Positions 3,306 through 20,300 of a stretch of 64,000 nucleotides of DNA are shown here, in pieces (position 1 is the first letter of the stretch; every line of letters begins with the position of its first letter). Source of the stretch: a virus; IMG/VR virus record IMGVR_UViG_3300046804_002503, positions 1-64,000 of that record. One strand, written 5' to 3'. Below the pieces are notes generated by a model. The model was not told where the DNA came from, searched no databases, and saw only the letters and a list, made by a program, of their open reading frames with translations. The translations under genes were made by a program, and so were the position numbers.

Positions 3306-6300
3306 TTAATACCAATTTATTTTATATAAAGTAGATTGAGCCGGTGCTAATTTTTCTACACTAGACCGAACTGCTGCCTCTACTCGATTTCTGAGCTCTT
3401 CATTGACTGGAAAATTATGAATATTAATGTTGTAGTATTTACTTTTGTTTCCAGGTAATTGCATTTTAAACCAATGTTTAATTTCTTCTATGTAATCCCG
3501 ATTACCCGTAGACATATTCCAAATTAAATTTTTACGTTTAGTAGCTTTGGGGGAACTGTAATAAACTTGATGCATATCACCTTTAGAAAGAAACTTATTA
3601 TAGACCTTCAATTCGGCTACTTGTCCTTTAAATTTATATGTATTTTGAACGCCTATAATGTCATTAATAGAACTGTTTCGAACTGCATCTGTTCCTAATA
3701 ATAAAGAAGATCGATAATCAAAAATTAAACTTTTGTTGGTAGATAAAATCTTATAATCTACTAATTCAGAATCTATAAAATAATTAACTTGCTTTTCAGA
3801 AGAACTAAAAGACAAACCAAATTGATGCCATCCAGGTTTGAGTAGGGTAGCATCATATGTTAAAGATAATATTTCTGTATTAGTACCATCAGCTTCACCA
3901 ATTTTAAGTTTCCAACTAATTTTTTTGGTTCCTATATAAAACTTTCTTAAATTTTGATATCCTGTAAAATCTCCATCTGCAAAGAAATTTAAATTTGAAG
4001 ACGAGATTAATTTTTCTAAATTTAATAAAGACATTTTAGATACTAAATCTCCATTAGATTCTAAAACATAAATTTCATTGTCTCTTTTATCTACTATTAT
4101 AATATAATCTATATAAGTTGATTTATCACACTGAATAATAGTTTCTTGTGGAACTCTTAAAAAGTTAATATATCTATACCTGTCTTTGTAATTAAAACAT
4201 TGTTCATTTAACAAGGAAGATCTTTTTCCTATTCTAACTGTAGAAAAAATCCCATTTTGAGACATTTTAGAAACATAATCTTCACCGTGAAGTAACCACA
4301 AATTATTAGAAGAATCACAAGTAATTTGTTGAGTATATCCTATTGTGGCAAATAAACCAGAAGAACCGTGTTTTAATGTTTCTTTATTAAAAGGTGTCTT
4401 GTATAAATTATTACCTAAGACTTCCCAAATATTTCCATCATTGTCTATAACAGACGTATGACCAAAAATTTCTATTACCTTTACAGTGTTTTTAACTAAT
4501 TGTAATTCTATTCTTTTGGTATTATAGTTATTGATTTTTATTAAATCTATTTGTTTACCATCAGAATTTAATTTAATAACTCTAAAATCATCCAATATTA
4601 ACAAATATAAATTATTTAAATGATCCATCTCTATTTGAGAAACTCCATAATAACCTTCTATCTTGGCTATTAGTCTAGACTCGGCGTCAAATTTATAACC
4701 AATTCCGTTGGCTGTGTCAAAAATCCAAAAAGAAAAATCTGGTAAGCGATTTATTAAATATTTGTCTTGTAAAGATAGAGGATAATTTTTAAGTTGATTA
4801 AAACTAACTTGCTTAAGATTATAATTTAAATTGAAAACTTCTCCATTTGTAGGGTTAAATAAGGTCATCAAAGCTGCTGGTATGGCTGATTCATTTATTA
4901 AACCATATCCACTATTATAAAAATTGCCAAATATTTGTCTTCCCACTATATTTGACCAATCATCTACCTTAACCCACAATGAAACTGCAAAATTGTCTGT
5001 ATCTAATAAACTTGTCTTAGCCGGAAATACTACATGAGTTGTTCCGTCTAAATTTAAATAATCTTGATACAACAAAGGATTATTTTCTGCATATACTTGA
5101 CCGTTATTGTTATAACCAGAATGATCTATTAACGGATTAGAATTCCAACTACTAATTTCTAAAACTTTAGAACCTCTTTCATCTGTAGAATATTCATCTA
5201 TTAAACTAAGATATTTTTTAGAATTTGTTAAACCACTTCTATAATATCTATAAAAAGCTCCGGGTTCTAAATATAATGTAGATGGTTCATCAAAAATGTA
5301 TTCCTTGGTGGGTTCTGTTCTATCATTATAAACCAAAGTTTGAGCACTTAAAGCTTGGTCTAATGTATAATAAGAAGCGTTATAATATCGATCTACCCAA
5401 ATTTTGGGCCCGTTATTGGAACCGGATAACCAAGCACATAACCAAGTATTAGAATATTTAGTAATACTTTCTGGTTGAACATAATCCGGAATACGAGATG
5501 TATAATCTATTTGTCTTAGATATATTCTATCTGAAATTAAAGGATGATGTCCAGCCGTGGCTCCGTCTTCTATTAAACCAGATTCATGAATAGATTTTCG
5601 CGGGGCAGTGGGTGGATAACTAAAAAATGATTCTTTATCATTAACAAAAACTTTTTCAGTTGTACTAGACGTGTATCCTAGGTATATGTTTTCATATCCT
5701 CCAGATTGATTGGTGCCACTAAAAATTTTATTGTATTCTCTATGTGACCCCGACACAGAAGGTCCAAAAGAATAACCATATTCCGGTGTTTGGTGATTTT
5801 TAAGACCACATAATTCTAAATTATAAACGGCTTCGTGTTGTATTATAGAATAGTTTTCAATGGGAAAAATACCTAAATAATTTTGAGCCAAATCTATGGA
5901 TTTAGTAGAGTCTGGTTGGAGGTTTATTTCTCTGTCTAATACTCCAGTAGAATATTTTGTTAAAAAACTATCTAAAACACTTAATTTTTTTTCTGGTTCA
6001 GGTAATAATACTTCACAAGATACAAATTTTAAAAAAACTGTATTCTGTATGGAAGATTCTTCGGACGGATTGTCTACTGTGATTCCGTAATTAGAATTTT
6101 CATAATAATGAACTATATTGTTTTCCAAGTTTAAGTTATCTAAAGATGTATTATTAACAGAAAAATTTCTACGAACAACTAAATTAAAATTAGAGTTAGG
6201 TAAGAATAAACAAATGCCATCTTGAGCTAGTAAATAACTAAATTTTTGAGATAAACTACCACCACGTATTGCTGGTCTAAAGGTTAAAAAATAAGAAGAA

Positions 6301-6818
6301 GGGTCTATTGGATCTAAACCCCAAGTTAATAACAAACCACTTGAATTTTCCAAAGACACAAATTCTGTTTCAGCATCTTCTAATTCTACAGAGGGGTCTG
6401 TGTAGAAATTAAGAGTAAAGACATCAGACTGACTATATTGGGGAGATATAAAAGTTCCAGGAACTAAATTAGCAGCTTTGTCTGATACAAAAAGGTTATT
6501 ATTTACTGTGACTAAAATTTTATCATAAGCACCTTCTTGAGTACTTAACAATGTTTTAAATCTAGAAATGGGAGTAATATCTTCGGGATGATTAATTTTT
6601 AAAAGATTTGAGGATTTGTTTAATTCTGTTAAAAATAGACCAGTTTTTTTGTTACTTGAAAATGACTTATAATTTTTTAAACAAGAAGAAATGTTAAATT
6701 TTAAGTCATTATCAAACAATATAGGTTCAGACAAAACTGAGTATTGTCTGTTTTTGGGCTGAAACCTAACTGGGAACCAACATTGTTTGATGTCTGGAAA
6801 ATTAAAAACATTAGCCAT
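3306..6818 (-). CDS. Large fibre protein: LamG domain interrupted by a beta-propeller
   Basis: 1170 residues. After a long N-terminal region, a LamG/concanavalin-like domain starts near residue 600 (FAVSLWVKVDDW, RQIFGNFYNSGYG) and its second half appears near residues 990-1090 (GWHQFGLSFSSSEKQVNYFI, QVAELKVYNKFL). Between them, residues about 690-935 hold propeller-like repeats (YGVSQIEMDHLNNLYLLILD, VIDNDGNIWEV, ITCDSSNNLWLLHG, DKRDNEIYVLESNGD), so the propeller seems inserted into a LamG loop. The C-terminus is a charged helical segment (ELRNRVEAAVRSSVEKLAP). LamG and NHL-type domains bind carbohydrate or protein, which fits a receptor-binding role. The ATG is 6 nt after an AGTAAATA promoter-like octamer and diverges from the plus-strand glycosyltransferase-like gene. 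Confidence 0.75.
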   Translation of the reverse strand: MANVFNFPDIKQCWFPVRFQPKNRQYSVLSEPILFDNDLKFNISSCLKNYKSFSSNKKTGLFLTELNKSSNLLKINHPEDITPISRFKTLLSTQEGAYDKILVTVNNNLFVSDKAANLVPGTFISPQYSQSDVFTLNFYTDPSVELEDAETEFVSLENSSGLLLTWGLDPIDPSSYFLTFRPAIRGGSLSQKFSYLLAQDGICLFLPNSNFNLVVRRNFSVNNTSLDNLNLENNIVHYYENSNYGITVDNPSEESSIQNTVFLKFVSCEVLLPEPEKKLSVLDSFLTKYSTGVLDREINLQPDSTKSIDLAQNYLGIFPIENYSIIQHEAVYNLELCGLKNHQTPEYGYSFGPSVSGSHREYNKIFSGTNQSGGYENIYLGYTSSTTEKVFVNDKESFFSYPPTAPRKSIHESGLIEDGATAGHHPLISDRIYLRQIDYTSRIPDYVQPESITKYSNTWLCAWLSGSNNGPKIWVDRYYNASYYTLDQALSAQTLVYNDRTEPTKEYIFDEPSTLYLEPGAFYRYYRSGLTNSKKYLSLIDEYSTDERGSKVLEISSWNSNPLIDHSGYNNNGQVYAENNPLLYQDYLNLDGTTHVVFPAKTSLLDTDNFAVSLWVKVDDWSNIVGRQIFGNFYNSGYGLINESAIPAALMTLFNPTNGEVFNLNYNLKQVSFNQLKNYPLSLQDKYLINRLPDFSFWIFDTANGIGYKFDAESRLIAKIEGYYGVSQIEMDHLNNLYLLILDDFRVIKLNSDGKQIDLIKINNYNTKRIELQLVKNTVKVIEIFGHTSVIDNDGNIWEVLGNNLYKTPFNKETLKHGSSGLFATIGYTQQITCDSSNNLWLLHGEDYVSKMSQNGIFSTVRIGKRSSLLNEQCFNYKDRYRYINFLRVPQETIIQCDKSTYIDYIIIVDKRDNEIYVLESNGDLVSKMSLLNLEKLISSSNLNFFADGDFTGYQNLRKFYIGTKKISWKLKIGEADGTNTEILSLTYDATLLKPGWHQFGLSFSSSEKQVNYFIDSELVDYKILSTNKSLIFDYRSSLLLGTDAVRNSSINDIIGVQNTYKFKGQVAELKVYNKFLSKGDMHQVYYSSPKATKRKNLIWNMSTGNRDYIEEIKHWFKMQLPGNKSKYYNINIHNFPVNEELRNRVEAAVRSSVEKLAPAQSTLYKINWY

Positions 6819-6832: not shown

Positions 6833-6839
6833 ATAAATG
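6832..6839 (+). promoter_or_regulatory. Late-promoter-like octamer TATAAATG
   Basis: TATAAATG matches the T4 late octamer TATAAATA at seven of eight positions. It lies 12 nt before the ATG at 6852 and contains the alternative ATG at 6837, which is one reason to prefer 6852 as the start. Confidence 0.4.
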
Positions 6840-6851
6840 TATATATTAGTC

Positions 6852-7733
6852 ATGAATTTGTATGAATATGGTTTAGACTTTTTAGAGAAAAATTCTCCCA
6901 AATATTTAATTACAGACCCTTCTACGGGGATAATTACTGCTACAGATTCTAATACATTTATAGGTGTACAAACCCTTTTCAAAAGTGTAAAAAACAAAAT
7001 TAATTTTTTATGTTATGACATAGGTTTATCAGATGATCAAAAAGAATGGTGTGCCAAAGAGGGTTTAAAAACCAAAGTTATAAAGGATCCAAATTGTAAA
7101 CATTTAGACAAGTGGCAAACCTATATTAAACCGTGGTTTGTAGCAGATAGTCCTTATGAATATACTATATGGATTGATAGTGACTGCATAGTTACTGGAA
7201 ACTTAGCGGAATCTGATTTTATCCGTAACAAACAGTCGTTTTTTATTAAACATTGGATAAAACAAAAATATTTAAATAAAAATCACAAATCTCTTTATAC
7301 CCACCATCCAGTAGCCAACAAAGAAGCTCCAGGTATAAATGCTGGTGTGTTTGGTATTAATAAAAGGGCCAATCATACTATTATAGATAAATGGATGTTT
7401 ATTCTTTTAGAAGCTTTCAAAAATTCTCATATATTAGATGCCATAGCTAATTGGGATGAAGGGGCTCTAAACTGGGCACTGCAAAATGATGACAATTATA
7501 AATTAATTCATAACGATGAAAGGTATAATTGTTTTTCTTCTTTTTTAATAGATGAAGATACCCACGACTTTTCTGTGTATGAACAGTCTATTCTAAGCTT
7601 TGCCAAGAGTGCTTCTTCGCGTTTATTTTTTAAACATGTTTTAGAAAAAGCTAAAGACAAATATATCTTACACTTTTCTACTTGTATGGAAAATAAAATT
7701 AAATACTGGGGAGCTTGGGATTCATCATCCTAG
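6852..7733 (+). CDS. Glycosyltransferase-like protein (GT8-type features)
   Basis: About 293 residues on the plus strand. The sequence has a nucleotide-sugar transferase look: YTIWIDSDCIVTGNL near residue 100 carries the D-x-D metal and nucleotide-sugar motif, NAGVFGINKRANH near residue 160 resembles the N-x-G-V region of GT8-like enzymes, and NWDEGALNWAL follows near residue 200. It probably transfers a sugar in the cytoplasm; donor and acceptor are unknown. An earlier in-frame ATG at 6837 overlaps the promoter-like TATAAATG, so 6852 is preferred. The gene converges with the GT31-like gene (9 nt tail overlap) and diverges from the fibre gene. The opposite orientation within a minus-strand region suggests separate acquisition or inversion. 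Confidence 0.65.
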   Translation: MNLYEYGLDFLEKNSPKYLITDPSTGIITATDSNTFIGVQTLFKSVKNKINFLCYDIGLSDDQKEWCAKEGLKTKVIKDPNCKHLDKWQTYIKPWFVADSPYEYTIWIDSDCIVTGNLAESDFIRNKQSFFIKHWIKQKYLNKNHKSLYTHHPVANKEAPGINAGVFGINKRANHTIIDKWMFILLEAFKNSHILDAIANWDEGALNWALQNDDNYKLIHNDERYNCFSSFLIDEDTHDFSVYEQSILSFAKSASSRLFFKHVLEKAKDKYILHFSTCMENKIKYWGAWDSSS

Positions 7734-8567
7734 ACCCATAGTCTTTTTAGAATTAGCAAAATTAATTAATAAAGAACTTATATCTTCTTCTAATTTCTGG
7801 AGAAGAGATTTTCTATACCAATAATTGACTCTCTTGGCATCTATTAATTTTGCTAATTGGTTTCTAGGAGTCAAGCTTAATAGGGAAGGAAAAAGGTGTG
7901 TACTAACCGGATGTAGGCTAATTACTTCTTCTGTTATTTGTAATACATTATTTTCTATTTCTTCATTTAAGAAGCAGATATTTTTTCTAGTAAAAGAAGA
8001 ATTTTTTAAGATATATCCTATTAATTGATCTTCACATACATATGAATTTTCTTTGAATTCTTTTAAAAGATTTTTATTCTCTAAAATAAAATTAACACAA
8101 GCTTTGCTTAAAGCATAAAAATCTCCAGTCATAAAAGAAAAGGGTTCTTTAAATGCTGGGGGATAAAGGTTTATAGTAGAACGTATGTTATACATCGGAA
8201 GGTCTATGTCTATAACATTCTTAGAAAAATTACTATGTTCTCTTCCTATGTAATCAGCTGACCATTCTATTTTATCCAATAGACTATAGTTGACCAAGGT
8301 GTCATCATCTATTTTAATTACGTAGTCATAGGTAAAATTATTGTGGACATGTTCTAAGCCTTTAAATATTTTTTTATAAAGATTAGAATATCTTTCCTCT
8401 ACATCTAATTGAACTGTGGTGTAAGGTATGTCTATACTTAAATTTTGGTTACCATAAACAAAAATTGGAGTTACGTCTGGGTTTAAATTATTTTTTAAAG
8501 CAAGTACCTGATTGGCTATACGGTCTTTGTTTTGTTCACAAACTGTGATCATTACTATAATTTTCAT
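7725..8567 (-). CDS. GT31/Fringe-like glycosyltransferase
   Basis: 280 residues. The order of motifs fits GT31 (galactosyltransferase/Fringe-like) enzymes: a leading MITVCEQNKDRIANQV strand-helix, LDVEERYSNLYKKIFKGLEH, then the acidic triad in YVIKIDDDTLVNY near residue 85, TGDFYALSKACVNFI near 150, and EDQLIGYIL near 185, matching the family's E-D-V-x-x-G acid motif. In that family the DDD triad binds Mn2+ and the UDP-sugar. It is a paralogue of the 9174-9968 protein. The ATG overlaps the upstream stop as ATGA, so it is translationally coupled to the deacetylase gene. Acceptor and linkage cannot be told. Confidence 0.65.
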   Translation of the reverse strand: MKIIVMITVCEQNKDRIANQVLALKNNLNPDVTPIFVYGNQNLSIDIPYTTVQLDVEERYSNLYKKIFKGLEHVHNNFTYDYVIKIDDDTLVNYSLLDKIEWSADYIGREHSNFSKNVIDIDLPMYNIRSTINLYPPAFKEPFSFMTGDFYALSKACVNFILENKNLLKEFKENSYVCEDQLIGYILKNSSFTRKNICFLNEEIENNVLQITEEVISLHPVSTHLFPSLLSLTPRNQLAKLIDAKRVNYWYRKSLLQKLEEDISSLLINFANSKKTMGLG

Positions 8568-9208
8568 TTTTGTATAAACCTTAAAATTTCAAAAGCTTCT
8601 GCATACTCTACACCAGCTTCCATACCCCTTTTGTTAGCATATATTTCTATACCCTTAGCCGATCGTGGGTGTGGAAATTCCTTTATTTCTTCTGGATAAG
8701 CTTCTAAGGCTTTTTGTTTAATGGCTATGTCAGAGGGTTCCAATACCTCATGGTAATGAGGAGAAAAGGTACTTTGATAAGCATTGCCCGCACTGCTAAT
8801 GATTTCTCCACTTAGAATAACTGGAATAGAATTTGGTCCCCATGTACGGGTGGCAATGCGGGCTAGACTTAAAGTTTGATGATGATCCTGGTGGACATCT
8901 AGAGTATGTGGCAAATATAAGATGTCTGGAGATTCGTTACTTAAAAAATCTTCTAGCTTGCATAAAGTGGCTAAACAAAATTCTGTTAATTCTTTTTCTG
9001 TAAAAAGTAAATCTATTTTTTGATGATAATTTAAAACTGACTTAGCTGCCTCCGAACAATTAAATTGCGAACGGGAACGGGTGTCATATGGACCTCTCAA
9101 GAATGCTACAGAAACCTTATTACCCAGACGTACGTGTTTAGCAATAGAACCCCCAAAGCCTAGGACTTCGTCGTCATGGTGTGGTACTAATACTAATACT
9201 TTTTTCAT
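8564..9208 (-). CDS. PIG-L/LmbE-type N-deacetylase
   Basis: 214 residues, near the usual size of this family. The N-terminal VLVPHHDDEVLGFGGSIAKH holds the P-H-x-D-D-E zinc and catalytic motif, and YLPHTLDVHQDHHQTLSLAR near residue 100 supplies the H-x-x-H ligand region. PIG-L/LmbE enzymes remove acetyl groups from N-acetylglucosamine-type sugars in glycolipid, mycothiol, bacillithiol and antibiotic pathways. Here it sits between two GT31-like genes: the upstream one overlaps it by 35 nt and it overlaps the downstream one by 4 nt. A joint role in making or trimming a glycan with a free amino sugar is inferred. The substrate is unknown. Confidence 0.8.
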   Translation of the reverse strand: MKKVLVLVPHHDDEVLGFGGSIAKHVRLGNKVSVAFLRGPYDTRSRSQFNCSEAAKSVLNYHQKIDLLFTEKELTEFCLATLCKLEDFLSNESPDILYLPHTLDVHQDHHQTLSLARIATRTWGPNSIPVILSGEIISSAGNAYQSTFSPHYHEVLEPSDIAIKQKALEAYPEEIKEFPHPRSAKGIEIYANKRGMEAGVEYAEAFEILRFIQK

Positions 9209-9968
9209 TTGAAAATTTAGATAATTCTTTGTTCAGATAAATTTCTCTTTTAATGTTGTCGTTTAAAAATTTGAACTTGTTTAAATAAACTAACTGCTCT
9301 TCTATAGAATTGCAAGTTTTAAGTTTGTCTATCAAAAAGGGGTGAACTGGGTGTATAAATGAAAAGTCTGTAGAAATTTCATAAAACGGAATCCAAGGCT
9401 TGGTAATGTCTTTACGAGAAAATTCTGATTCTGGTAGACACATTCCCACTTTAATGTCTTCGCCTATATATTGTTCTGGTACATTTACAAAAAAATCATA
9501 ACCAAAATTATAAACAGCTTGAGCAGCTTTTCGGTTCAAAAAATAAAGACTACCTTCTGCATAAGACAAATCAAAAGAAGGTTTTTGTATTTTGTAGCTT
9601 TCTGTTTTAATTTTATACCAATGATAAATGCTATTTTTTAAAGATTTGGTATATTTTACAAATAACCCTACATAGTCTTCTTCGTGAGTGTTATTTAAAA
9701 TCTTATCTACATCTACAAAGGTATCATCATCCATTTTTACTAAAACATTTTCTTCTGTGTTTTTTAAAAAATGTTCTATTAAAAAATAAGTCTTGAGCGG
9801 CAAATTTTCATATGCTTCATCTACGTCTACCTCCAGAGAGGGTTCTACCTTTTTTGTAGAATTTTTTCCGTATACAAAATAATAAGCTACATTTTTATTT
9901 TCAAATAAAGATTTTATTTTTGATGCAGCTTCGTAGTTTCCATCGTGGGTGGTGATATAAAAAATCAT
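9174..9968 (-). CDS. GT31/Fringe-like glycosyltransferase
   Basis: 264 residues. FYITTHDGNYEAASKIKSLF at the start, VDVDEAYENLPLKTYFLIEH near residue 50, NVLVKMDDDTFVDVDKIL near 80 with the DDD triad, EGSLYFLNRKAAQAVYNFG near 140 and GEDIKVGMCLPE near 170 follow the GT31 motif order seen in the 7725-8567 protein. HPVHPFLIDKL near 225 may be the acceptor side. The frame overlaps the deacetylase start by 35 nt and begins with an ATGA overlap on the gene upstream, so it belongs to one translational unit with them. It likely adds one sugar to the same acceptor as its paralogue. Specificity is not readable. Confidence 0.65.
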   Translation of the reverse strand: MIFYITTHDGNYEAASKIKSLFENKNVAYYFVYGKNSTKKVEPSLEVDVDEAYENLPLKTYFLIEHFLKNTEENVLVKMDDDTFVDVDKILNNTHEEDYVGLFVKYTKSLKNSIYHWYKIKTESYKIQKPSFDLSYAEGSLYFLNRKAAQAVYNFGYDFFVNVPEQYIGEDIKVGMCLPESEFSRKDITKPWIPFYEISTDFSFIHPVHPFLIDKLKTCNSIEEQLVYLNKFKFLNDNIKREIYLNKELSKFSNEKSISISTTP

Positions 9969-10723
9969 ATGTTCAAGACGTTTTCTTTTTTGTTGGTTAA
10001 AGAAAAATAAACACTACATATTTTATCTTTTGTAAATCCGGTATAAACCGGTTCAGAATTTAGGTAAGATGAATATTCTTTTACTTTAGAATGATAGATT
10101 TCCGGAATAGAACTCCAAACATTTTGTTTGATCTCAAAATTGTTCATTTTATTAACTATATTAATTTTATACTTTTTTGAAGTGGCATAAATTTCTAATT
10201 CTTCTATCTCTTCTATTTTGATATCTGTATTTTTAAATTTAACAGACATAACTTTAGCTATATCTATTTCATTTTTTACATAAACATAAAATTTGTCATA
10301 ATATTTTTCTTCAGATTCTATTTCATAAGAAATACCCTTTTCTAAAAGGGTAGGATCTATTTTGAGTAAAGACAAAAATGACAAATTATTATTATATAAA
10401 ATTTCTTTAAAGTTTCTATCAAATTTAATGTGAAAATAATTTTTAGAAATTAATGAATTGTCTATTTTAAATCCTAACGCCAAGCTAGAACTTCTGTTGG
10501 GGTCCCAATATTTGCTATAATGTAAAAAAGAATGAGAAAATTTTTCTGGTAAAAATTTATTTAAAACTTCTAAACTAGGAACGTGAGGTAGTTCTATGTA
10601 TAATTTAAAATTTTCATAACCATTTGATAGATCTAAACCACACAATTTAGCCCCTTGATTAAAGTTATGTAATTTAATTTTATTACAAAAATCTTTTAAT
10701 TTTTGAGATTCTATTAACTGCAT
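9965..10723 (-). CDS. Unrecognised protein with prenyltransferase-barrel-like strand pattern
   Basis: 252 residues with no motif I can assign directly. Five consecutive units of two strands and a helix can be drawn: GAKLCGLDLSN/FKLYIELP/SLEVLNKFL; SLALGFKID/NYFHIKFD/FKEILYN; GISYEIES/KFYVYVK/DIAKVMS; IEELEIYATS/YKINIVN; and PVYTGFTKD/CSVYFSLT. Five alpha-beta-beta-alpha repeats are the layout of ABBA (PT-barrel) prenyltransferases such as those of cyanobactin pathways, so a small-molecule or peptide prenyltransferase is possible. This is a fold guess from strand spacing, not a family hit. It overlaps the amidotransferase gene by 10 nt and the glycosyltransferase gene by 4 nt, which ties it to the cassette. 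Confidence 0.35.
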   Translation of the reverse strand: MQLIESQKLKDFCNKIKLHNFNQGAKLCGLDLSNGYENFKLYIELPHVPSLEVLNKFLPEKFSHSFLHYSKYWDPNRSSSLALGFKIDNSLISKNYFHIKFDRNFKEILYNNNLSFLSLLKIDPTLLEKGISYEIESEEKYYDKFYVYVKNEIDIAKVMSVKFKNTDIKIEEIEELEIYATSKKYKINIVNKMNNFEIKQNVWSSIPEIYHSKVKEYSSYLNSEPVYTGFTKDKICSVYFSLTNKKENVLNI

Positions 10724-12108
10724 AATTTTTCTCTGTATACTTCAAATGTTGGTGGCATAGGTTTATAAAACCCAACCTTTTCAAAAATTTCTTCACCGTT
10801 GTTGTTTACATCTACAAATGGAAATTGATGTTTTAGCATATATTGTCTTTGAGGATGTTTCCATTTTTTATAAATTTTTTTGTTTAACCATAAAGTTTCT
10901 TGCCACAATTTAGTATCTAAAAAGGGATAACGTATTTCTATACCATGAACTCCACAACAATACTCACAGGAATAAACATTATTATCATCAAAATCTACAA
11001 CATAATTTAAATTATTCAACGTTTTAATTTTTTGATTAATTTCTGGACAACCTATAATATCCCCAGCTAACCCAGATAAGCATATTCTATACCCCTCTTC
11101 TCTGGCTGTTTTTAAAATAAGTCCTGCACCTAAAAAACCATATGTGTTGCGACATATTTTTTTAATTGTAGAATTTATATTATGATCATAATATGTGTAC
11201 TCATACGGTTCACATTTTTTGTATATGTTGGAACATATTTTTATATGATCCATTAAATTGGGATCTATAAATTGTTTATTTTTAATGTTTGGTATTTTAA
11301 TTTCTATATTTTCAATGTCTGGAGGAGTCTTGGCTTTCATGTCATGTCTCCATAACAATACATTGCTAGGCGTATCCAATACATTAACAGAATACATTTT
11401 AAAATCTATATCATTAGCAACTAATGCACAACTAATACATCCGCTATCATATCCCTCACTTACACCCATCATTACCGGTTTGAGACTAATAGCTCTTTTT
11501 TTAACACTTTGTTCAAATGCTAAGTTCCAATCTTCAAAAGAATCTTTATATTCGTTGTCTATATCAAAAACTGATATGACTTTCTTTTCTAGAGATTTTG
11601 TTTTTATGTCAAAAATAAACCATTCGTTTCCATCTACTTGTTTAATATTTTTTATATCTAATTTTTCTAAGGCACTTTTATAACTAGCAAAATGATATCC
11701 ATTATCTAAACTGTAAAAGAGAGGTTTACACCCAAAAGTGTCTACACCAAATATAATTTTTTGTTTTTTTAAATCTATTAATACTATAGCAAATTCACCG
11801 TCTAATTTTTGTAAAAAATAATCTCCATAATTTTGATAAGAAGGTATTAAACAAAATCCATCAGAAATAGCATCTGGGTTAAGATCTGAATAATTGTAAA
11901 TTTCACCATTGTATATAGCCAAGATATCATCTTTTATAAAAGGTTGTAAAGTAAACTCTCCAGTAATGCTTAATAAATTGTGTAATAAAGTTATACCGTT
12001 ATATTCTTTAACATTAGTAGCATCTGGGCCTCGATACTTCTGATAATAGTTGGCTTCTAATAATTTTTCTCTAGAAACCTCTTTAGTGGTAACCAAAAAA
12101 CTACACAT
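10714..12108 (-). CDS. Asparagine-synthetase-like class II amidotransferase, atypical
   Basis: 464 residues. The chain starts Met-Cys (MCSFLVTT), as needed for the N-terminal cysteine nucleophile of class II glutamine amidotransferases. YRGPD near 27, YNGEIYNY near 70 and FGCKPLFYSLDNGYHFAS near 125 follow AsnB. The synthetase half has GVSEGYDSGC near 217 in place of the pyrophosphate loop S-G-G-x-D-S, and CLSGLAGDIIG near 345 in place of S-G-E-G-x-D-E. It ends with GIEIRYPFLDTKLW as AsnB-type enzymes do. The fold therefore looks intact while two ATP-site motifs are altered. Family members amidate carboxylates of amino acids, sugar acids or peptides. Here it probably aminates a cassette product, or it may have lost ATP chemistry. 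The ATG diverges from the plus-strand radical SAM gene. Confidence 0.75.
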   Translation of the reverse strand: MCSFLVTTKEVSREKLLEANYYQKYRGPDATNVKEYNGITLLHNLLSITGEFTLQPFIKDDILAIYNGEIYNYSDLNPDAISDGFCLIPSYQNYGDYFLQKLDGEFAIVLIDLKKQKIIFGVDTFGCKPLFYSLDNGYHFASYKSALEKLDIKNIKQVDGNEWFIFDIKTKSLEKKVISVFDIDNEYKDSFEDWNLAFEQSVKKRAISLKPVMMGVSEGYDSGCISCALVANDIDFKMYSVNVLDTPSNVLLWRHDMKAKTPPDIENIEIKIPNIKNKQFIDPNLMDHIKICSNIYKKCEPYEYTYYDHNINSTIKKICRNTYGFLGAGLILKTAREEGYRICLSGLAGDIIGCPEINQKIKTLNNLNYVVDFDDNNVYSCEYCCGVHGIEIRYPFLDTKLWQETLWLNKKIYKKWKHPQRQYMLKHQFPFVDVNNNGEEIFEKVGFYKPMPPTFEVYREKLCS

Positions 12109-12141
12109 GGAAACTAATTACTGGATGCCTATATATTAACA

Positions 12142-13302
12142 ATGCAAGATTATTTTAGCTTAGTTCCTTGGACTGGAATATACCTAAGAACAGACGGAAA
12201 CGCTTATCCCTGTGAGAGTGTTGCTTGGGAAGGGAATAATGATTATTGTGTCGGTAACATCAGAAATCATTCTTTTGAAGAGATGTGGAATCATGAAGTT
12301 TATCGTAAAATGCGCTTAGAAGTCTTAAAGACTAAAAAATGTTCTATAGACAATGAACTGACTAATTCTTGTACCTATTTGCAAAAAAGACATCTATATA
12401 ATCAAGATATAAATTATTATAAACAAAACACAAAAGAAGACGGAAGCTTTGATTTTAATCTTAAAAAAATAGATTTAGAGAGATCTAATATATGTAATTT
12501 AGCTTGTGTATATTGTAACCCTACAAGCAGCTCTAGTTGGGCAAAAAAGTTAAAAACAGAACCCTTGGGTCGAATACCTGATGAGATATATTGGAAACGT
12601 TTAGATCCGGTATTGCCTTATCTAGAAGAAATAGCATTTGCTGGTGGTGAACCTGTTTTAGATGTTTTTAATGAACAAATTTTAGACAAATTAATATCTA
12701 TGAATAGATTTATTAATGTTAACATGTCTACCAATGTAACATATGATTTAGAAAAACGTATTTCGATGTTTCAAAAATTAGAGAAGTTTCAAACCCGTAT
12801 ATTTTGTAGTGTAGATTCTTGGGGTAAAACTTTTGAAACTATTAGAGAAAATTCTCAATGGGATTTAGTTTTTAATAATTTAAAACAATTAAAACCAATG
12901 AATTTTAAATTATTATTTTGTATTACAATAAGTGTGTTGAATTGCTTTTCTTTAAAAGAATATCATGAATTTTTAATGAAAAATAGTTTAGCAGAAATAG
13001 ATTCTATACGATATCAGCCAGTGTGTCATCCGGCTTGGTTGAGTATACGTAATTTATCAGAACACAAAAAGAAACAATTAAAATATTATTTTTTAATGTA
13101 TATAAGTTTTCTTAAAAAATTAGAAGCAGAAAGGGGACAAGAACTGGATGTTTGGTGTAATTTTAAACCAGTGTCTGAAGCCTTGATGGAGCTGATAACA
13201 AAATATCTGCATAGTAAAAACGGTTCTGAAAACTTTTTAGAAGAATTGACAGATAAATTAAATCTTGACAATTCCTTTTTAGAAACCGTTAAACTAAGAT
13301 AA
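12142..13302 (+). CDS. N-twitch radical SAM protein
   Basis: 386 residues on the plus strand. An N-terminal half-SPASM (twitch) region comes first: VPWTGIYLRTDGNAYPCES near residues 7-25, CVGNIRNHSFEEMWNHE near 38, then further cysteines (KKCSIDNELTNSC). The radical SAM core follows with the C-x3-C-x2-C cluster motif in SNICNLACVYCNP near 118 and the SAM-binding AFAGGEPVLD near 170. This N-terminal twitch arrangement is known in a radical SAM subgroup found in marine viruses and bacteria. SPASM/twitch enzymes usually modify peptides or sugars with an auxiliary Fe-S cluster. It is a paralogue of the 15289-16491 protein but lies on the opposite strand, converging with a hydroxylase-like gene (9 nt overlap). 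The substrate is unknown. Confidence 0.8.
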   Translation: MQDYFSLVPWTGIYLRTDGNAYPCESVAWEGNNDYCVGNIRNHSFEEMWNHEVYRKMRLEVLKTKKCSIDNELTNSCTYLQKRHLYNQDINYYKQNTKEDGSFDFNLKKIDLERSNICNLACVYCNPTSSSSWAKKLKTEPLGRIPDEIYWKRLDPVLPYLEEIAFAGGEPVLDVFNEQILDKLISMNRFINVNMSTNVTYDLEKRISMFQKLEKFQTRIFCSVDSWGKTFETIRENSQWDLVFNNLKQLKPMNFKLLFCITISVLNCFSLKEYHEFLMKNSLAEIDSIRYQPVCHPAWLSIRNLSEHKKKQLKYYFLMYISFLKKLEAERGQELDVWCNFKPVSEALMELITKYLHSKNGSENFLEELTDKLNLDNSFLETVKLR

Positions 13303-13923
13303 AGGTTTGTAGTCTACATTAATAGAATCCATTGTGGCTACATAAAATCTAGCTTCAGAACTTGAATTAGATATGTCTAATTCCGAATCTCCTTTATAGA
13401 TAAAATAATCTCCTCTTTGTTTGAGAACTTTTTGTTCTCCATTAACTTTAACTGTAAAGTTACCATCTATGTCATTAAGCAAAATGCTTATTAATACAGA
13501 GTCTTCAAATTTATAAGACTGAAGAGAAGCATCTTTTTTAAAAGTAAAAACCCAACTAGAAATAGTTGTGCTTGGAATAAGAAGTTTAATATTAGTAAAA
13601 AGAGGCAAATAATTATAGTAATAGTAATTCGGATCTACTAAATTTAAAAAATCTGGATTTTGGCTTATAGAATCAAAAACATCTACACAGATGTTAAACA
13701 ATTCTTCCGGGGCATCTGGTTCTGTTTTAATTTTCTGATTTTGATTAATTAAAGTGGTATAAATTTTAATTTGATTTTCTTCCTTTATAGTCTTTAGTTT
13801 AACATTTTCTGTCAAAGGTAATTTTTGTAAATATTCGTTGTAATCTACATTGACCCATTCTATAAAATTATTGAGGTCTAAATTAAAGGAAGGTATCTCT
13901 GACAATTCTATAAAATTTCTCAT
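13294..13923 (-). CDS. Hydroxylase-like paralogue lacking the metal histidines
   Basis: 209 residues. It aligns along its whole length with the 13948-14592 protein: M-x-N-F-I at the start, SSWVFTFKKDA against TAWVFFYKNGA, then DIDGNFTVKVNGEQKVL against DIEGKFIVHVNGEEKIL, and RGDYFIYKG against KGDYCIFNG. Where the paralogue has EGHGHTT and YPHGANF, this one has YKFEDSV and SELDISN, so the likely metal-binding histidines are absent. It may be an inactive partner, a binding subunit or a decaying copy; the frame is open and uninterrupted. An AATAAATA octamer lies 6 nt before the ATG. It converges with the plus-strand radical SAM gene. Confidence 0.6.
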   Translation of the reverse strand: MRNFIELSEIPSFNLDLNNFIEWVNVDYNEYLQKLPLTENVKLKTIKEENQIKIYTTLINQNQKIKTEPDAPEELFNICVDVFDSISQNPDFLNLVDPNYYYYNYLPLFTNIKLLIPSTTISSWVFTFKKDASLQSYKFEDSVLISILLNDIDGNFTVKVNGEQKVLKQRGDYFIYKGDSELDISNSSSEARFYVATMDSINVDYKPLS

Positions 13924-13929
13924 ATACTG

Positions 13930-13937
13930 TATTTATT
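13930..13937 (-). promoter_or_regulatory. Late-promoter-like octamer AATAAATA
   Basis: AATAAATA lies 6 nt before the ATG at 13923. With T4 spacing, transcription would begin about one base before the start codon. Identified by motif only. Confidence 0.4.
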
Positions 13938-13947
13938 AAAAGGTAAT

Positions 13948-14592
13948 TTATATCAAATCAAAATCTTGTATATTAGCTGCAAACGTTAAAAATTTAGCCT
14001 CTTTGCCTAAAAAGTTTGCTCCGTGGGGGTAAATTCCATTAAAAATACAATAATCACCCTTCTTGTTGAGTATTTTTTCTTCACCGTTTACGTGTACTAT
14101 AAATTTTCCTTCTATGTCTTCTAAAAGAAAATGAATCATTATTGTAGTGTGACCGTGGCCTTCTTTTTCATCTACTAAAGCTCCATTTTTATAGAAGAAA
14201 ACCCAGGCAGTCCTCAATTGTTCTGGAAAGAGGTTGATGGTTTTGTAAAACAATGATTTGTCTTGAGAAGGAAAAGGAGGACCAACTATTTCATCTATCT
14301 CTTTAGCTTTAATTCCATTTCCTCCTTCATAATTTTGTTCTGGGCCATCTACTGTAAAGTTAAAAAGTTCATTGTCACTACCAGAACACGGGCAATGAAC
14401 TTTTTGATCAAAATAGAACGGCACAGCATACATTTTAATAAAATCTGTTTGTTGTATTTTATTGTATTTTGTTTTTTGTTCTGGGGGTAATTTAAGAAAA
14501 AAATCAGACAAATCTTCTAAAGCTGCTTCTATAAGATTAGATTTAACATTTAACAACCACGGAACTTCATTTATATCTATAAAATTTTTCAT
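13948..14592 (-). CDS. Aspartyl/asparaginyl hydroxylase-like protein
   Basis: 214 residues. The C-terminal half looks like a double-stranded beta-helix: TAWVFFYKNGALVDEKEGHG near 128, MIHFLLEDIEGKFIVHVNGE near 155, KKGDYCIFNG near 180 and IYPHGANFLGKEAKFLTFAA near 190. The H-G-H and later H-G pairs are candidate Fe(II) ligands. The arrangement resembles the Asp/Asn beta-hydroxylase family (2-oxoglutarate dependent) and the 14594-15250 protein, with which it shares its N-terminal helix pattern. Such enzymes hydroxylate Asp/Asn side chains or small molecules. It is the middle of three tandem relatives; the start follows the upstream stop as TTTTAATATG. Assignment is by motif order, so another cupin-fold enzyme is possible. 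Confidence 0.5.
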   Translation of the reverse strand: MKNFIDINEVPWLLNVKSNLIEAALEDLSDFFLKLPPEQKTKYNKIQQTDFIKMYAVPFYFDQKVHCPCSGSDNELFNFTVDGPEQNYEGGNGIKAKEIDEIVGPPFPSQDKSLFYKTINLFPEQLRTAWVFFYKNGALVDEKEGHGHTTIMIHFLLEDIEGKFIVHVNGEEKILNKKGDYCIFNGIYPHGANFLGKEAKFLTFAANIQDFDLI

Positions 14593-14593
14593 A

Positions 14594-15250
14594 TTAAAAT
14601 TCTGACCCTATCACCAATAAAATTCTGTTCTCATCTCCGCGCTCTATAGCTATATGGTTGTACGAGGAATCAAACACTAATAAAGGTTCTTCTTCATTAA
14701 GGTGTACTGTATGACCTTCGGCTTGAATTTCCATATATTTGTCTGCTTTATTTAAATTGAAAGAAGACAAATAAAATTGAGGGTGTACGTGGGGATCAAA
14801 CCAAGTACCTGGCTTAAATTCTATAAACATGGCTTGCCATAATTTAGGTACATGTTGAGTGACTAAATCGTAAGATTCTTTCAATAAATAAAGCAAATCA
14901 TCATCTGAAAAATAAAAAAAATCAAACATTTTTTGTAACCTTTTTTCGTGTCTAATATAAGACCTTTCTTCTGGTGTCATTTGGTATGTGGGGGCACATA
15001 TACCATTATAATATCCTACGTCTTCTTTCTTCTTCCTTAAAGGAGTATTTCTAGTAAAGAACGGTACGGAGAAAGCTTTAATTAATGGACAAGTTTCCAT
15101 GTTGTTTAAATGTTCAGAAACAACCGGATATTCTGAATGGACTACTTTTTTGTAATTTAAATATTCATTAAGAAAAATGTCTTTTTTTTCTAAAAGAAAA
15201 GAGGCCCATTGTAAATTTTCTGGTAAATTGTTTAAAGTATAAAGTATCAT
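14594..15250 (-). CDS. Aspartyl/asparaginyl beta-hydroxylase-like protein
   Basis: 218 residues. The C-terminal half carries the best hydroxylase signature of the three tandem relatives: EFKPGTWFDPHVHPQFYLSS near 145, then a strand pair, EEEPLLVFDSSYNHIAIE near 190 and GDENRILLVIGSEF at the end. In Asp/Asn beta-hydroxylases the first histidine and the later F-D-D-S-x-x-H histidine bind iron and a following arginine binds 2-oxoglutarate; all three have counterparts here. The likely reaction is oxygen-dependent hydroxylation of a peptide or small substrate. A CCTAAATA octamer lies 21 nt before the ATG. Position next to a radical SAM gene supports a joint tailoring role. The substrate is unknown. 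Confidence 0.6.
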   Translation of the reverse strand: MILYTLNNLPENLQWASFLLEKKDIFLNEYLNYKKVVHSEYPVVSEHLNNMETCPLIKAFSVPFFTRNTPLRKKKEDVGYYNGICAPTYQMTPEERSYIRHEKRLQKMFDFFYFSDDDLLYLLKESYDLVTQHVPKLWQAMFIEFKPGTWFDPHVHPQFYLSSFNLNKADKYMEIQAEGHTVHLNEEEPLLVFDSSYNHIAIERGDENRILLVIGSEF

Positions 15251-15271
15251 AATTGGCCTGAATAATAATGG

Positions 15272-15279
15272 TATTTAGG
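15272..15279 (-). promoter_or_regulatory. Late-promoter-like octamer CCTAAATA
   Basis: CCTAAATA has the TAAATA core and sits in the 38 nt gap before the hydroxylase-like gene starting at 15250. This is one of the weaker matches. Confidence 0.25.
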
Positions 15280-15288
15280 GACCAGAGT

Positions 15289-16491
15289 CTATAGAATCAA
15301 CTCCTTAAAATGTTTGATAAATTTTATGTTTTTAAAATTTAATAAATTTTCTTTTAAAAACAAATTATATTGATTTTTGTTTTCTTCTTCTGAAAATCCC
15401 CAATGACCCCATTTACCATTATAAAGAGTTTCTATTATTTTATCTATTACAGTCAACGGAGATTCTCTGTTTGGAAATGGGTCTAAATCTGTTCCTAACC
15501 AATTTTTATATTCTAACAATTTTTCCTTTATAGAATCTTTAATTTTAAGAGGCAAAATGCTATATCGATATTTAAAGGGGCCGTGGAGGTTGTAATATCT
15601 TATGTTGTCTTTTTTAATTAAATTTTCTTGGTACAATTCTTTATGAAATTCTGGATAATAGTATAAATTAAATATACTCATTACAGACTGTAAAATAAAT
15701 GGTATTTGTTTATCATTTATTTGTTTAATAGTGTTTTTTATGGTTTGAGAATTTGAATTAGTTCTAATAAATTCTCCTCTAGGTCCGCTCAAATCCCAAC
15801 TACCAAAAACTATGACATCTTTAAAATGCTTTAATAAATCATATATATTTTGGCCCATATAATCTGTCTTCATTAAATTGGTAATAAACCTTATTCTAAC
15901 ATTAGTTTTGTTATCTTTTAACAATTTGTTTAAAAAATAATATGTAGATTTTTGTATTACAGGTTCACCAGAAGCAAACCATATTTCTTGAACCGTATCA
16001 TAATTTTTATCATATAAAGATATTAAATCTTCGTAAGGTAATCCTCTTTTAACTTCTTTAGTTTCATCCCATAAATTGCTATATTGAAAAGAACAATATT
16101 TGCATTTTAAATTACAAATGTTACTTTCTATTAAATTCCAAGCTATAAAATTATATTCAGCAGTTCCATCTTCTAGAGTGTTTAAAATAGATTTTTCAGC
16201 TTTATCTATTAAATCTAAGCCAAAATATTTTTTACAAGAATTAAGACATCCGTTACATTCCTTGAAACAAGAATCTATATATTCGTTCTTGAGCATTTTT
16301 ACTCGTAATTCTCTTAAAACTTTGCTGTTCCACAGAGTTTCAGGAGATTCTTTCGTAGAACCCAGACACATGTCTTTATTACCAGCTAAAGACGGACAGG
16401 GATAGACAAATCCGTCTGTGAAATAATACAAATGAACCCAGGGTACTATACAAAAATTGGGTTTATTTGTTATATCTTTAATAGTTTTCAC
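15289..16491 (-). CDS. N-twitch radical SAM protein
   Basis: 400 residues. The twitch half comes first (FCIVPWVHLYYFTDGFVYPC near 13-32, CLGSTKESPETLWNSK, CFKECNGCLNSCKKYFG with a dense cysteine set near 76-90). The radical SAM core follows with SNICNLKCKYCSF near 128 and WFASGEPVIQK near 172, where the usual G-G-E-P reads S-G-E-P. It is a paralogue of the plus-strand protein at 12142-13302 but has more N-terminal cysteines, enough for an auxiliary Fe-S cluster. The start is a GTG at 16491 overlapping the upstream gene by 14 nt; the next in-frame Met lies inside the twitch region. It likely modifies a peptide or sugar. Which one is unknown. Confidence 0.8.
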   Translation of the reverse strand: MKTIKDITNKPNFCIVPWVHLYYFTDGFVYPCPSLAGNKDMCLGSTKESPETLWNSKVLRELRVKMLKNEYIDSCFKECNGCLNSCKKYFGLDLIDKAEKSILNTLEDGTAEYNFIAWNLIESNICNLKCKYCSFQYSNLWDETKEVKRGLPYEDLISLYDKNYDTVQEIWFASGEPVIQKSTYYFLNKLLKDNKTNVRIRFITNLMKTDYMGQNIYDLLKHFKDVIVFGSWDLSGPRGEFIRTNSNSQTIKNTIKQINDKQIPFILQSVMSIFNLYYYPEFHKELYQENLIKKDNIRYYNLHGPFKYRYSILPLKIKDSIKEKLLEYKNWLGTDLDPFPNRESPLTVIDKIIETLYNGKWGHWGFSEEENKNQYNLFLKENLLNFKNIKFIKHFKELIL

Positions 16492-17311
16492 TCTGGATAA
16501 AAGAAATGAAAGGATTTGGGGCTAAAATAGGTGGCCAGCAGTAAAGAATTAAATCTTTAGCTATTTCTTGATCTTTAAATATAGAATAATCTTCTGCTAC
16601 CGTGTCTAAAAATTCTTTAATAGAAGAAACTTCGTCAGAAACCGATTCTGCATCTTGATTAAATTCTGCAAATTCTTTGTCTAAAGCAGATTTTTCCTTT
16701 TCTACGTGTTTACGTATTAGTTTCATCATTTGCTCTTTACAATAATCTAGGTCTTTAATCTTATTAACATCAAATATACCCAAAATAAGCATTATCTTTT
16801 TGGTTTCTAGATTTATATCTTTATTGGCAAATAGCTTTAAAGTTTCTAAAGTAAAATGTTCTTCTTCGTAGTCTTTAATAAAAACATTTTTCCGTATCAA
16901 TTTTAACATAAAATATACGGATTCTAAATTTTTTAATTGAGTATGATCTTGAAAAGATTCTTCTACAATTTTTAGCTGGTTAGGAGATAAAATTTCTTTA
17001 ACTGCTTTGAAATAGTTTTTATTCATCTGAGCCAAATTGGCTGGAACTATGTCATACGTTTTAGAAGAAATTCTATTCTCGTCTGTGTCATATTCGTAAT
17101 AGGTAATATGACCATAATAAATTTTTTCGACCTTTTCAGTGATGAAATTATAAGCCTCAAAAAATATTGGATTCCTGAGTAAAGGTCTATTTGTATAATT
17201 AGAATTACATGTAAAAAATTTATTCCAAGTTTGATTATTATTGGAATAAACTATATTTACTATAGTTTTATCTAGAGCATCATCTATAATAGATTTGATA
17301 TGACTAATCAT
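16478..17311 (-). CDS. Unrecognised helical protein heading the enzyme cassette
   Basis: 277 residues that I cannot assign. The sequence is largely helical and charged, with a highly acidic stretch near 205-235 (KEFAEFNQDAESVSDEVSS) and a distinct hydrophobic end (LILYCWPPILAPNPFISF). There is no signal peptide, membrane segment, Cys cluster or nucleotide-binding motif. It lies just downstream of the 3433-residue fibre gene and overlaps the radical SAM gene by 14 nt, so it could be a partner protein of the cassette or a fibre-folding chaperone. Neither is shown by the sequence. Confidence 0.55.
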   Translation of the reverse strand: MISHIKSIIDDALDKTIVNIVYSNNNQTWNKFFTCNSNYTNRPLLRNPIFFEAYNFITEKVEKIYYGHITYYEYDTDENRISSKTYDIVPANLAQMNKNYFKAVKEILSPNQLKIVEESFQDHTQLKNLESVYFMLKLIRKNVFIKDYEEEHFTLETLKLFANKDINLETKKIMLILGIFDVNKIKDLDYCKEQMMKLIRKHVEKEKSALDKEFAEFNQDAESVSDEVSSIKEFLDTVAEDYSIFKDQEIAKDLILYCWPPILAPNPFISFIQSENY

Positions 17312-17356: not shown

Positions 17357-20300
17357 TTAGTTAGGAATGTTGTAAAGAGGCATCATGTAGTCTTTACCAT
17401 TTACTGTCACTCTTAAATAATTGGCTATAGACCCAGCAGCGGTTGCACCGGGCTCTAAAGCCAACGGATTAGAGTTAGAACCCAATGCTAAACTGGTGTT
17501 TAAAGTGGTTGTAGCATTTTGTCCAATAGCTATACCAGCTCCAGGTGTAAAGTATCCAGTTATGAATTGAGCTGGAGGAGAAGATTTTATAGCCACACGA
17601 GATAATCGATAAGTGAATCTATTTATAACTTGAGTAATAACAACTGGGTGTACTTTACCATCTCCTTCGTCTTTAACATTTTCTGGGAAAGTGCCGAAGT
17701 AATCTTCTATAACAGTTCCTGGCCAGTTAAAGACTTGATAGGATGCTGGTGTAGTACTTGTGTCATCTAGTGGTATAAGGGTACCATCTTCTTTTTTACC
17801 TATTTTAACATATTGTGGTACTAAAATGTCAGCTAAATAATCTCCAACTCGTAAAGCAGAAATAGAAGTAACCACACTGCTTAATCCAATACCAGTAAGA
17901 GTCATTATGTCTGAACCAGTAGTTAATTGTATTGGTAAAGCAAATCGATAATCTGTTTGTTGGAAACGAGCTGTAAGGCGGGATGTACCGGTAGATGTGT
18001 AATTGACTGCACCCGGGAATGGTTTTGAAAGAGCCACACGAGTTTCATCTAAAATAGAAGTAATGTAGGTATTGGGGGCAAACAAATTATTTGCATTTCC
18101 GAATACAAATCCTTCTACCAACATACCAATTTTCATCTTATATCCTGGATCAATTTTTAATCTAGCATAAGTTAAATTGTTTCTATAATTGCTTAATGTA
18201 GAACCTTCTACTAAACCGTCATAAACTAACATTGCTAAATTTCTGCCAACTGTAGCCTTTTCTAATTCCATGTCATATACTATAGCTGTTGGAATTGTTT
18301 TGTTGGGGTTAGTTTCTGTGTTAGGCCTGTAAAGGTCAAAATAACTCTTATCACCGGTGTTAACGTTCCAAACACTGGTTTGTATTTGACTTTCATCTGT
18401 TATTAAATCTGTAAGTCTTGTATCTTGAGTAGAACCAGATACAAACACTCGAGCACCTACTGGATCAGATTGTATGGCGTATAACTCAACTGCACTGGTG
18501 AAAAGAGTTTCAACTGAGGTTTCTGCAGCATTTAATCTTTCCACATAATGAATGTAGCCAGCATCATTATTTTCTGTTTCTTGCTTTCTAGCATAATAAA
18601 CACGACCAGTGTTATCAGAAGATACGTCTATAATTGGTCCTGTGTTAGGTGAAGTAAGGAACAGACTGCTGAGATTTGCAACGGCTACGGTACTTAAACG
18701 GGCTGTAAATCCAGTTCCTTTGGGATTAAAGATTTTTCTAACTCTATTGTTAGCAGAGTCTGCTACATATAATATACCGTCTGGGGCCACGGCACCCCAA
18801 GGAGTAACTGCAGATGTGTTGGTGTTTAAAGTTAAACGTACAGGCTTATTTAAAGAACCGTAAGAACCAATAGCGTGATCTGAAGTTCCAATTCCTACAT
18901 TATTTAAATTTAAAACTCCGGTAGTTACTGGAGTTGGATTATCATCAAACAATCTAGCTTGTACTGCAGATTGTGTAAAAGGCCAATCTGCTGGGAAATT
19001 AGCAGAATTTACAACCCCAAAAGGAGTTGGTAAAGACTCATACAAAGGAGTATAAGCAAACGGACGCTGACCGAAGTTGATATGAGCAACAGATGCTCTG
19101 GCTGCCAATGCTCCTAAACGGATAAGAGGATAAACAGTTCCAGTAATTCCTGTAAATGCTACCCCTTGAGATATACCATTTTTATAAAAAGTTAAAGAAC
19201 CGTTTGTGGATAAAAGAACACTAATGACGTCCCCAATGCTGTAAGGTAAACCGTAAGCGGAACCAGTTCCTCCTGTGAATTTTCGACCATCACTAAAATA
19301 ACCATTAATGCCAGTTGCTCCGGTAGTTTGGGTAATATCTGAAGTTACACCTACAATAACCCCGGATGCATTTAGATCTGATATAGTAACTTCCCAATAC
19401 CAATTCCTGCTTCTATCTAATGGAATGTTACCATAACGATGGGCTCCAGTAGTTGTTGCAGCTAAAGCTGTGGACATGGTAAGATTGCCGTTAGATAAAC
19501 TGGTATTTGTCAGATCTCCGTTTGCTGGATTTAACGTAGCAAAGTTACCAACAGCTTGTCGAGGCTTTCCGGTTAGTATATTTGCTATAGATATTTGGTT
19601 AAGAGGAGTATCTGAACAACGATTATAAAGAGCCATTAGAAATGAGCTGGTATAAACCGGCACATCATCTACAATAATGCAAGACAACCAAAAATCTCTA
19701 GGTGCTGTTGTATCTCCGTGTCCAATAGTAATAGAGGTAAGGGTGGTTACCCCTAAATTAACTTTACTAAATTGAACTCCAGTGGCAACTCCGGGCACAG
19801 TTTGAGATGTTCCAGTAATATTTGCTCTAATAGATCCCGGAGAAGCCCATGCTAAATAACAATAAGCTTCTATTTTAGAGGTTGCTACTATAGGCCTTGA
19901 GAAATAAAGGGTAATAGCATTGGCGCCCGCGACAGCTGTTGCCTTGGCTATAGAATAACGATAAGCATTAGTATTGTCTGTAGAGGCGGGTAAAGTGGCG
20001 TTACCAAAAGCTCCGACACCATTTCTAGAATCCCAACCACTCAGTTCTGTTACAGTAGAGGAACCGGTGGTGCCGGTGAGGCTGAAAGAAACGATATTAG
20101 TTGGTGTAAAATTGTTGCCCCTGCCTGATGAATCTCCACCTATATCTGAGGCTACTACGTAAAATTTTAAATAAAATCCATTGGTTCCATAACTACCACT
20201 ATACTCCTTAGGAGACCATATTTTATAATTTTGTAATACAGCATCTGTAGAGTAATCATAAGTTCCAAAAGAACTTGCTGGTAAGGCTAGTCCGTCTACA

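Follow-up and report, generated by a model that had tools for sequence, protein, structure and literature searches.

A putative glycan-building and amino-sugar-editing gene island in the fibre region of a T4-superfamily phage

Pelagimyophages carry host-recognition clusters (HRCs) in which tail fibres lie together with many glycosyltransferases and radical SAM cassettes (PMC7029224), T4-like cyanophages carry lipopolysaccharide (LPS) gene clusters (PMC3037559) and the Campylobacter phage CP220 has eleven radical SAM genes with no firm function (PMC2853527). For mycobacteriophage virions it is well established that structural proteins can carry glycans (Freeman 2023, cited in PMC12619734). The present analysis concerns a cassette of twelve genes lying between two fibre genes in the first 64 kb (hereafter referred to as the window) of the 125,677-base virus record IMGVR_UViG_3300046804_002503. 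An earlier examination of the window, made from the sequence alone (hereafter, the sequence-only reading), held that no described phage pathway combines such enzymes. This was too strong a claim in view of the first three studies, since fibre islands with glycosyltransferases and radical SAM genes are already described, but the exact combination appears unreported in the literature searched. The cassette, which is situated in the fibre region (the region of host recognition) of its T4-superfamily phage, is proposed here, with a probability of roughly 0.5, to be a late-expressed and exchangeable island for glycan building and amino-sugar editing, its acceptor probably being a virion protein such as a flanking fibre and less likely the LPS of the host.

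Family matches to the portal, major head, prohead protease, tail-sheath stabiliser and baseplate wedge genes place the phage in the T4 superfamily, with portal and capsid identities of only ~30-34% to the closest isolates. Twelve long open reading frames with ATG or GTG starts and without internal stops occupy positions 6837-17311; they were found intact within the span marked earlier, except that the first gene begins at 6837 and not at 6852. Seven of the enzyme labels given to them pass curated family models (two GT31 glycosyltransferases, a PIG-L deacetylase, an AsnB-like amidotransferase, an Asp_Arg_Hydrox protein and two radical SAM proteins) and the others do not.

Relatives of the cassette were identified in two other phage contigs. 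A 30-kb contig (L008), found by a scan with the radical SAM alignment, carries beside its fibre genes counterparts of radical SAM protein 1 (54% identity), PIG-L (39%), GT31 (33%), the orphan protein g05 (~35%) and the AsnB-like protein (28%), and its further cassette genes encode a GT2, two GT8 proteins, a DXD-type transferase, a second radical SAM protein and a protein with a UDP-sugar dehydrogenase domain. In the third contig (L148), found by the GT31 scan, the order is fibre, g12-like protein, GT8, DXD transferase, GT8-like proteins, SPASM radical SAM protein, g05, amidinotransferase, GT31 and PIG-L. In both contigs the fibre and g12-like genes border the island on one flank, and the opposite flank has genes for a small membrane protein and an exonuclease. 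The core common to the window, L008 and L148, in each case beside fibre genes, consists of GT31, PIG-L and g05, and the motifs of radical SAM protein 1, PIG-L and GT31 are kept across the relatives at 25-54% identity. The GT31 family (PF01762) was matched in only one of 35 phage records bearing radical SAM or AsnB genes, that record being L008; its rarity and the confinement of g05 to these phages argue that the grouping is no by-product of common genes. The recurrence of the core in both contigs thus points to a set, more than to chance, as the sequence-only reading had supposed when it named scattered homologues beforehand as the outcome that would tell against a coherent tailoring set; the homologues were found to be clustered. 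Gene content, position, family motifs and conservation as a set are direct observations.

Both GT31 proteins, recognised as such earlier, exceed the curated PF01762 cut-off (43.6 and 43.5 bits against 23) and the DDD motif is invariant in the alignment. They are encoded on the minus strand at 7725-8567 (g02; E-value 3.7e-11, IDDDT motif) and 9174-9968 (g04; 4e-11) and are 28% identical to each other. The PIG-L family N-deacetylase (g03, 8564-9208, minus strand), also correctly named before, matches PF02585 (E-value 3.3e-12; 47.4 bits against a cut-off of 28.2) and bears the PHxDDE / HxDH metal motif, its PHxDDE and HQDH residues being invariant across the window, L008 and L148. The genes for g04 and g03 overlap by 35 nt and the GT31/PIG-L pair of L148 by 38 nt. 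For g01 (298 aa, 6837-7733, plus strand) the label of GT8 is not confirmed, as family and PDB searches returned no match; the protein is treated, by its DxD-like motif (WIDSD) only, as a putative GT-A type glycosyltransferase. A further GT31 relative was observed at L149:5079-6032, on a contig whose remaining genes resemble those of a giant eukaryotic virus.

The two N-twitch radical SAM proteins predicted earlier, g07 (12142-13302, plus strand) and g11 (radical SAM protein 1; 15289-16491, minus strand), have SPASM/Radical_SAM matches and score 211.7 and 205.8 bits, respectively, against the cut-off of 170 for N_Twi_rSAM (NCBIfam NF033640). Both contain an intact CxxxCxxC motif, the cluster cysteines C126/C130/C133 are invariant in the alignment and g11 is the best-conserved member of the cassette. 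The best PDB match of the N-terminal twitch domain is to BtrN, which is itself a radical SAM enzyme and acts in amino-sugar chemistry. An assignment to prokaryotic viperin was rejected (24.8 and 25.9 bits against a cut-off of 180, with weak PADLOC matches over the radical SAM core only). Radical SAM genes related to the window pair, two to six in each locus, were also observed in 81 phage loci (L004, L008-L087), where SGNH-hydrolase-like and NodU-like carbamoyltransferase-like proteins are recurrent partners; we know of no stated function for this widespread group.

Three hydroxylase-like proteins had been expected in the cassette. This holds for g10 (218 aa, 14594-15250, minus strand), an aspartyl/asparaginyl-beta-hydroxylase / LpxO / OlsC-like Fe(II) hydroxylase that passes the Asp_Arg_Hydrox cut-off (PF05118, E-value 3.4e-7), the OlsC and LpxO models remaining below theirs. 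It is less certain for g09 (214 aa, 13948-14592, minus strand), a putative cupin/2-oxoglutarate (2OG)-Fe(II)-oxygenase-like protein with HxH and H residues but with matches to PF07883 and PF14226 that are weak and below cut-off. The third, g08 (209 aa, 13294-13923, minus strand), belongs to no family and appears to be a degenerate paralogue of g09 (29% identical) without these candidate metal-binding histidines. Scans with g09 and g08 returned no further relative.

Relatives of SPASM/twitch radical SAM proteins are often peptide maturases, g10 falls in an Asp/Asn hydroxylase family and the cassette sits between giant fibre genes, all of which would suit a direct tailoring of proteins or peptides. 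The radical SAM proteins and hydroxylases would then modify fibre side chains by C-H activation and Asp/Asn hydroxylation, GT31 would glycosylate hydroxyls and the AsnB-like enzyme would make amide or isopeptide links. We consider this unlikely, as the best PDB match of the twitch domain is to an amino-sugar enzyme, PIG-L and the amidinotransferase of L148 fit such a role poorly, and no precursor peptide, leader-binding domain or transporter was seen. Among the products suggested earlier, a decorated glycan on the fibre or the host surface fits best, while a small tailored peptide lacks evidence of a precursor or a transporter.

The short AsnB-like amidotransferase (g06, 10714-12108, minus strand) matches GATase_7 (E-value 8e-17) and Asn_synthase over the curated cut-offs, in agreement with its earlier description as asparagine-synthetase-like, but scores 127.6 bits against the cut-off of 267.1 for asparagine synthase B (TIGR01536). 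It retains Cys2, while its SG-x-G-A-D-E loop is altered and has lost the DE; judged from these residues and scores, it is AsnB-like and not AsnB. Of 53 phage AsnB-like proteins that were aligned, 52 retain the glutamine amidotransferase (GATase) Cys2, the exception being that of L008, and the synthetase loop of the family (SG-x-G-A/S-D-E) is altered in the window and L008 alike. After redundancy was removed, 27 phage loci with AsnB-like genes remained, and most of these have glycosyltransferases, fucosyltransferases, epimerases and UDP-sugar dehydrogenases as neighbours. The idea that AsnB-like and N-twitch radical SAM proteins are associated across phages in general was rejected: N_Twi_rSAM exceeds its cut-off in one of the 27 AsnB-like records (L008), and in the reverse direction Asn_synthase does so in three of 35 radical SAM records, L008 being once more among them. 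The association is thus particular to the present lineage.

In L148 the enzyme between g05 and GT31 has as its best PDB match the inosamine-phosphate amidinotransferase StrB1 (E-value 9e-47). In the phage collection this family is represented in Campylobacter phages and one cyanophage (S-SCSM2R); in CP220 the gene is surrounded by radical SAM genes and adjoined by two sugar transferases, and in S-SCSM2R it occurs with glycosyltransferases, a radical SAM protein and 2OG oxygenases. A full-text search for radical SAM and amidinotransferase in bacteriophages returned PMC2853527 as the sole phage study. The degeneration of the AsnB-like protein, together with the amidinotransferase of L148, suggests that nitrogen addition is the function most readily exchanged within the island, and the neighbourhoods of the amidinotransferases, the glycan clusters of the AsnB-like proteins and the match to BtrN point to nitrogen-bearing sugars, which by context and family would be the substrates.

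The hexamer TAAATA is the core of the T4-type late promoter. Counted within 40 nt upstream (background ~3.4%), it precedes 11 of 26 structural genes, being the commonest there among all hexamers of the same composition, and, in the early-strand block, only 3 of 32. In the cassette of L008 it is again the top hexamer and stands before 8 of 15 genes. The cassette genes of L008 (2089-15323) were seen to switch strand at nearly every gene across short divergent gaps, several with TAAATA, as if many genes bring their own late promoter. The cassette genes of the window had been read as operons, which is only partly right; two of them (6837-7733 and 12142-13302) run in the direction opposite to the rest, and the cassette therefore comprises several short transcription units on both strands and not one operon. 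A simple hydropathy scan of the entire record detected no polytopic membrane protein, so that the phage would be without a flippase, polymerase or ligase of its own, although host machinery could serve. The late-promoter-like motifs and the lack of membrane export machinery favour a cytosolic acceptor, for example a fibre protein; a surface polysaccharide made independently is less favoured.

These observations bear on the alternative that the enzymes remodel the LPS or another surface glycan of the host, using host lipid carriers and export, and thereby block superinfection or the adsorption of progeny to debris. Modification of the O-chain was proposed by the authors of PMC7029224 for the glycosyltransferases of the pelagimyophage fibre region, g10 is closest to LpxO/OlsC, which are hydroxylases of membrane lipids, and L008 encodes the UDP-sugar dehydrogenase domain protein. 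Nevertheless, the 125 kb contain none of the membrane proteins named above, and late-promoter-like motifs suit virion assembly better than an early change of the surface; remodelling is thus a credible but clearly less probable explanation. A virion protein is the most likely acceptor because the record is without membrane export machinery and the relatives carry late-promoter-like motifs.

The two remaining members of the recurrent islands belong to no known family. The conserved orphan g05 (252 aa, 9965-10723, minus strand) has no Pfam match, its best PDB profile match is a ribosomal protein (E-value 0.086) and its predicted structure is poor (pLDDT 37, then 56), fold searches with this low-confidence model being empty; the PT-barrel label proposed for it is therefore unsupported, though the model is too weak to speak against it. 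Pattern scans with g05, of a kind that overlooks distant relatives, returned no viral contig beyond L008 and L148 and no match among the bacterial and archaeal genomes searched, and a genome-contig scan with radical SAM protein 1 was likewise without a match, so that no bacterial donor can be named. When single proteins were scanned against viral contigs, the sole match was another contig of this phage, 100% identical to it. The fibre-adjacent protein g12 (16478-17311, minus strand) has a C-terminal WPxxLxPxP motif in an alignment of three, and a g12-like gene directly follows the fibre block in L008 and L148 also, at a weak overall identity of 17-25%. Of the flanking genes, both on the minus strand, that upstream of the cassette (17357-27658) encodes a giant fibre/adhesin of 3433 aa with NHL, SPRY and beta-propeller repeats, and the fibre gene downstream (3306-6818) has a homologue (30%) in the fibre block of L008.

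As for the remainder of the record, QueC (E-value 6e-59), an adjacent protein starting with MCGIAG and a QueE-like radical SAM protein are encoded at genome positions 65787-67278 and 91374-92126. The MCGIAG protein has no Pfam match and looks like a class-II amidotransferase; by sequence the QueC/QueE-like genes probably serve 7-deazaguanine DNA modification. Phage glycosyltransferases are able to decorate DNA bases, according to work cited in PMC12619734, and a DNA hypermodification cassette was therefore considered. It is the most improbable of the explanations weighed here, for the deazaguanine route is separate and lies elsewhere in the phage, no gene of the thymidylate synthase/dCMP hydroxymethylase family was found in the record and the cassette is situated among fibre genes. 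At 82742-89528, in the early-strand block and well away from the fibre island, there is another stretch of glycosyltransferase-like genes, several of them with GT2-type starts. The record further encodes two DUF1501 proteins, both full-length and apparently with Tat signal peptides (genome 71869-73233 and 74047-75318; L142:7869-9233 and 10047-11318; PF07394, E-values 1e-135 and 1e-117), as well as a sulfotransferase (75597-76421); the first DUF1501 protein had no tblastn match in 50,697 phage records. The DUF1501 family is abundant in Planctomycetota and Verrucomicrobiota, and the two proteins are a possible clue to a host in these phyla.

In the proposed glycan-building island, the soluble glycosyltransferases (two GT31 and one GT-A-like) would build a short oligosaccharide from host nucleotide sugars, from which PIG-L would strip the N-acetyl group of a hexosamine. 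The AsnB-like enzyme would add an amide-type or related nitrogen group; the L148 relative is without an AsnB-like protein and has the amidinotransferase in the same neighbourhood. Ring or side-chain positions would be oxidised or hydroxylated by the two N-twitch proteins and the Fe(II) hydroxylases. Several points weigh against this proposal. The portal of L148 is 47% identical to that of the window, by which the three phages seem to belong to one related lineage whose islands have diverged strongly; their shared content thus reflects partly shared ancestry and not independent inventions. With the loop DE lost in g06 and Cys2 lost in L008, nitrogen addition may be impaired or may proceed differently, and g08 looks catalytically dead from its residues. 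TAAATA precedes only 2 of the 12 cassette genes in the window (p ~0.07), which alone is not significant. The GT31, PIG-L and radical SAM families act on lipids and peptides too, and the order of the steps, the sugar substrate and the acceptor are only what we infer. The degenerate look of g08 and of the synthetase loop, the low GC content (28.7%) and the discussion of LPS genes as possible stuffer DNA in PMC3037559 would also suit a selectively neutral or decaying cassette acquired in a hypervariable island. This is very unlikely, however, given that all twelve frames are open and that the motifs of radical SAM protein 1, PIG-L and GT31 are conserved across the relatives.

The recurrent module ties the radical SAM genes of T4-like phages to glycosyltransferases, a deacetylase and nitrogen-group transferases, and yields the concrete proposal that phage radical SAM proteins edit the sugars of a glycan encoded by the phage; should a fibre be the acceptor, this would be a new route for phages to diversify host recognition. 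A wider and rather doubtful extension is that T4-superfamily phages of several hosts share a modular amino-sugar glycan pathway of aminoglycoside-like chemistry that decorates fibres, with swappable nitrogen-group enzymes varying the decoration as a host-recognition trait. Its steps would be deacetylation followed by amidation or amidination, radical oxidation and hydroxylation.

Among the described systems, the cassette belongs with the pelagimyophage HRCs in being a large variable island of a T4-superfamily phage with tail fibres, glycosyltransferases and radical SAM genes in the structural region. It differs in that the published account names GT8 and LPS-type genes and does not describe the core of GT31, PIG-L and g05 with AsnB or amidinotransferase; the HRC borders VrlC and gp14 were not recognised here with PHROGs, the island lying downstream of a baseplate wedge gene. 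The module of the T4-like Campylobacter phages CP220 and CPt10 (PMC2853527) likewise has several radical SAM genes near baseplate genes, with an amidinotransferase in both phages and nucleotide-diphospho-sugar transferases in CP220 only, but its radical SAM proteins are not close in sequence and the stretches examined contain no PIG-L, GT31, AsnB-like or g05 relative. Cyanophage S-SCSM1 has an AsnB-like protein (33% identical) among glycosyltransferases, though with GDP-fucose-type sugar genes and neither N-twitch radical SAM nor GT31, and S-SCSM2R brings glycosyltransferases, radical SAM, 2OG oxygenases and an inosamine amidinotransferase together; neither stretch has a g05 relative. Mycobacteriophage virion glycosylation concerns different phages, and the passage of PMC12619734 that cites it makes no mention of a set of radical SAM or deacetylase genes. 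An aminocyclitol antibiotic pathway was rejected, as the DHQ-synthase family (2-deoxy-scyllo-inosose (DOI) synthase, PF01761) and sugar aminotransferases (PF01041) were unmatched in the record. The cassette is thus not considered a member of an aminoglycoside antibiotic pathway, but it may work like amino-sugar tailoring, since its twitch radical SAM domain, the relative of the inosamine amidinotransferase in L148 and PIG-L recall the aminoglycoside tailoring enzymes BtrN and StrB1 and all suit amino-sugar chemistry.

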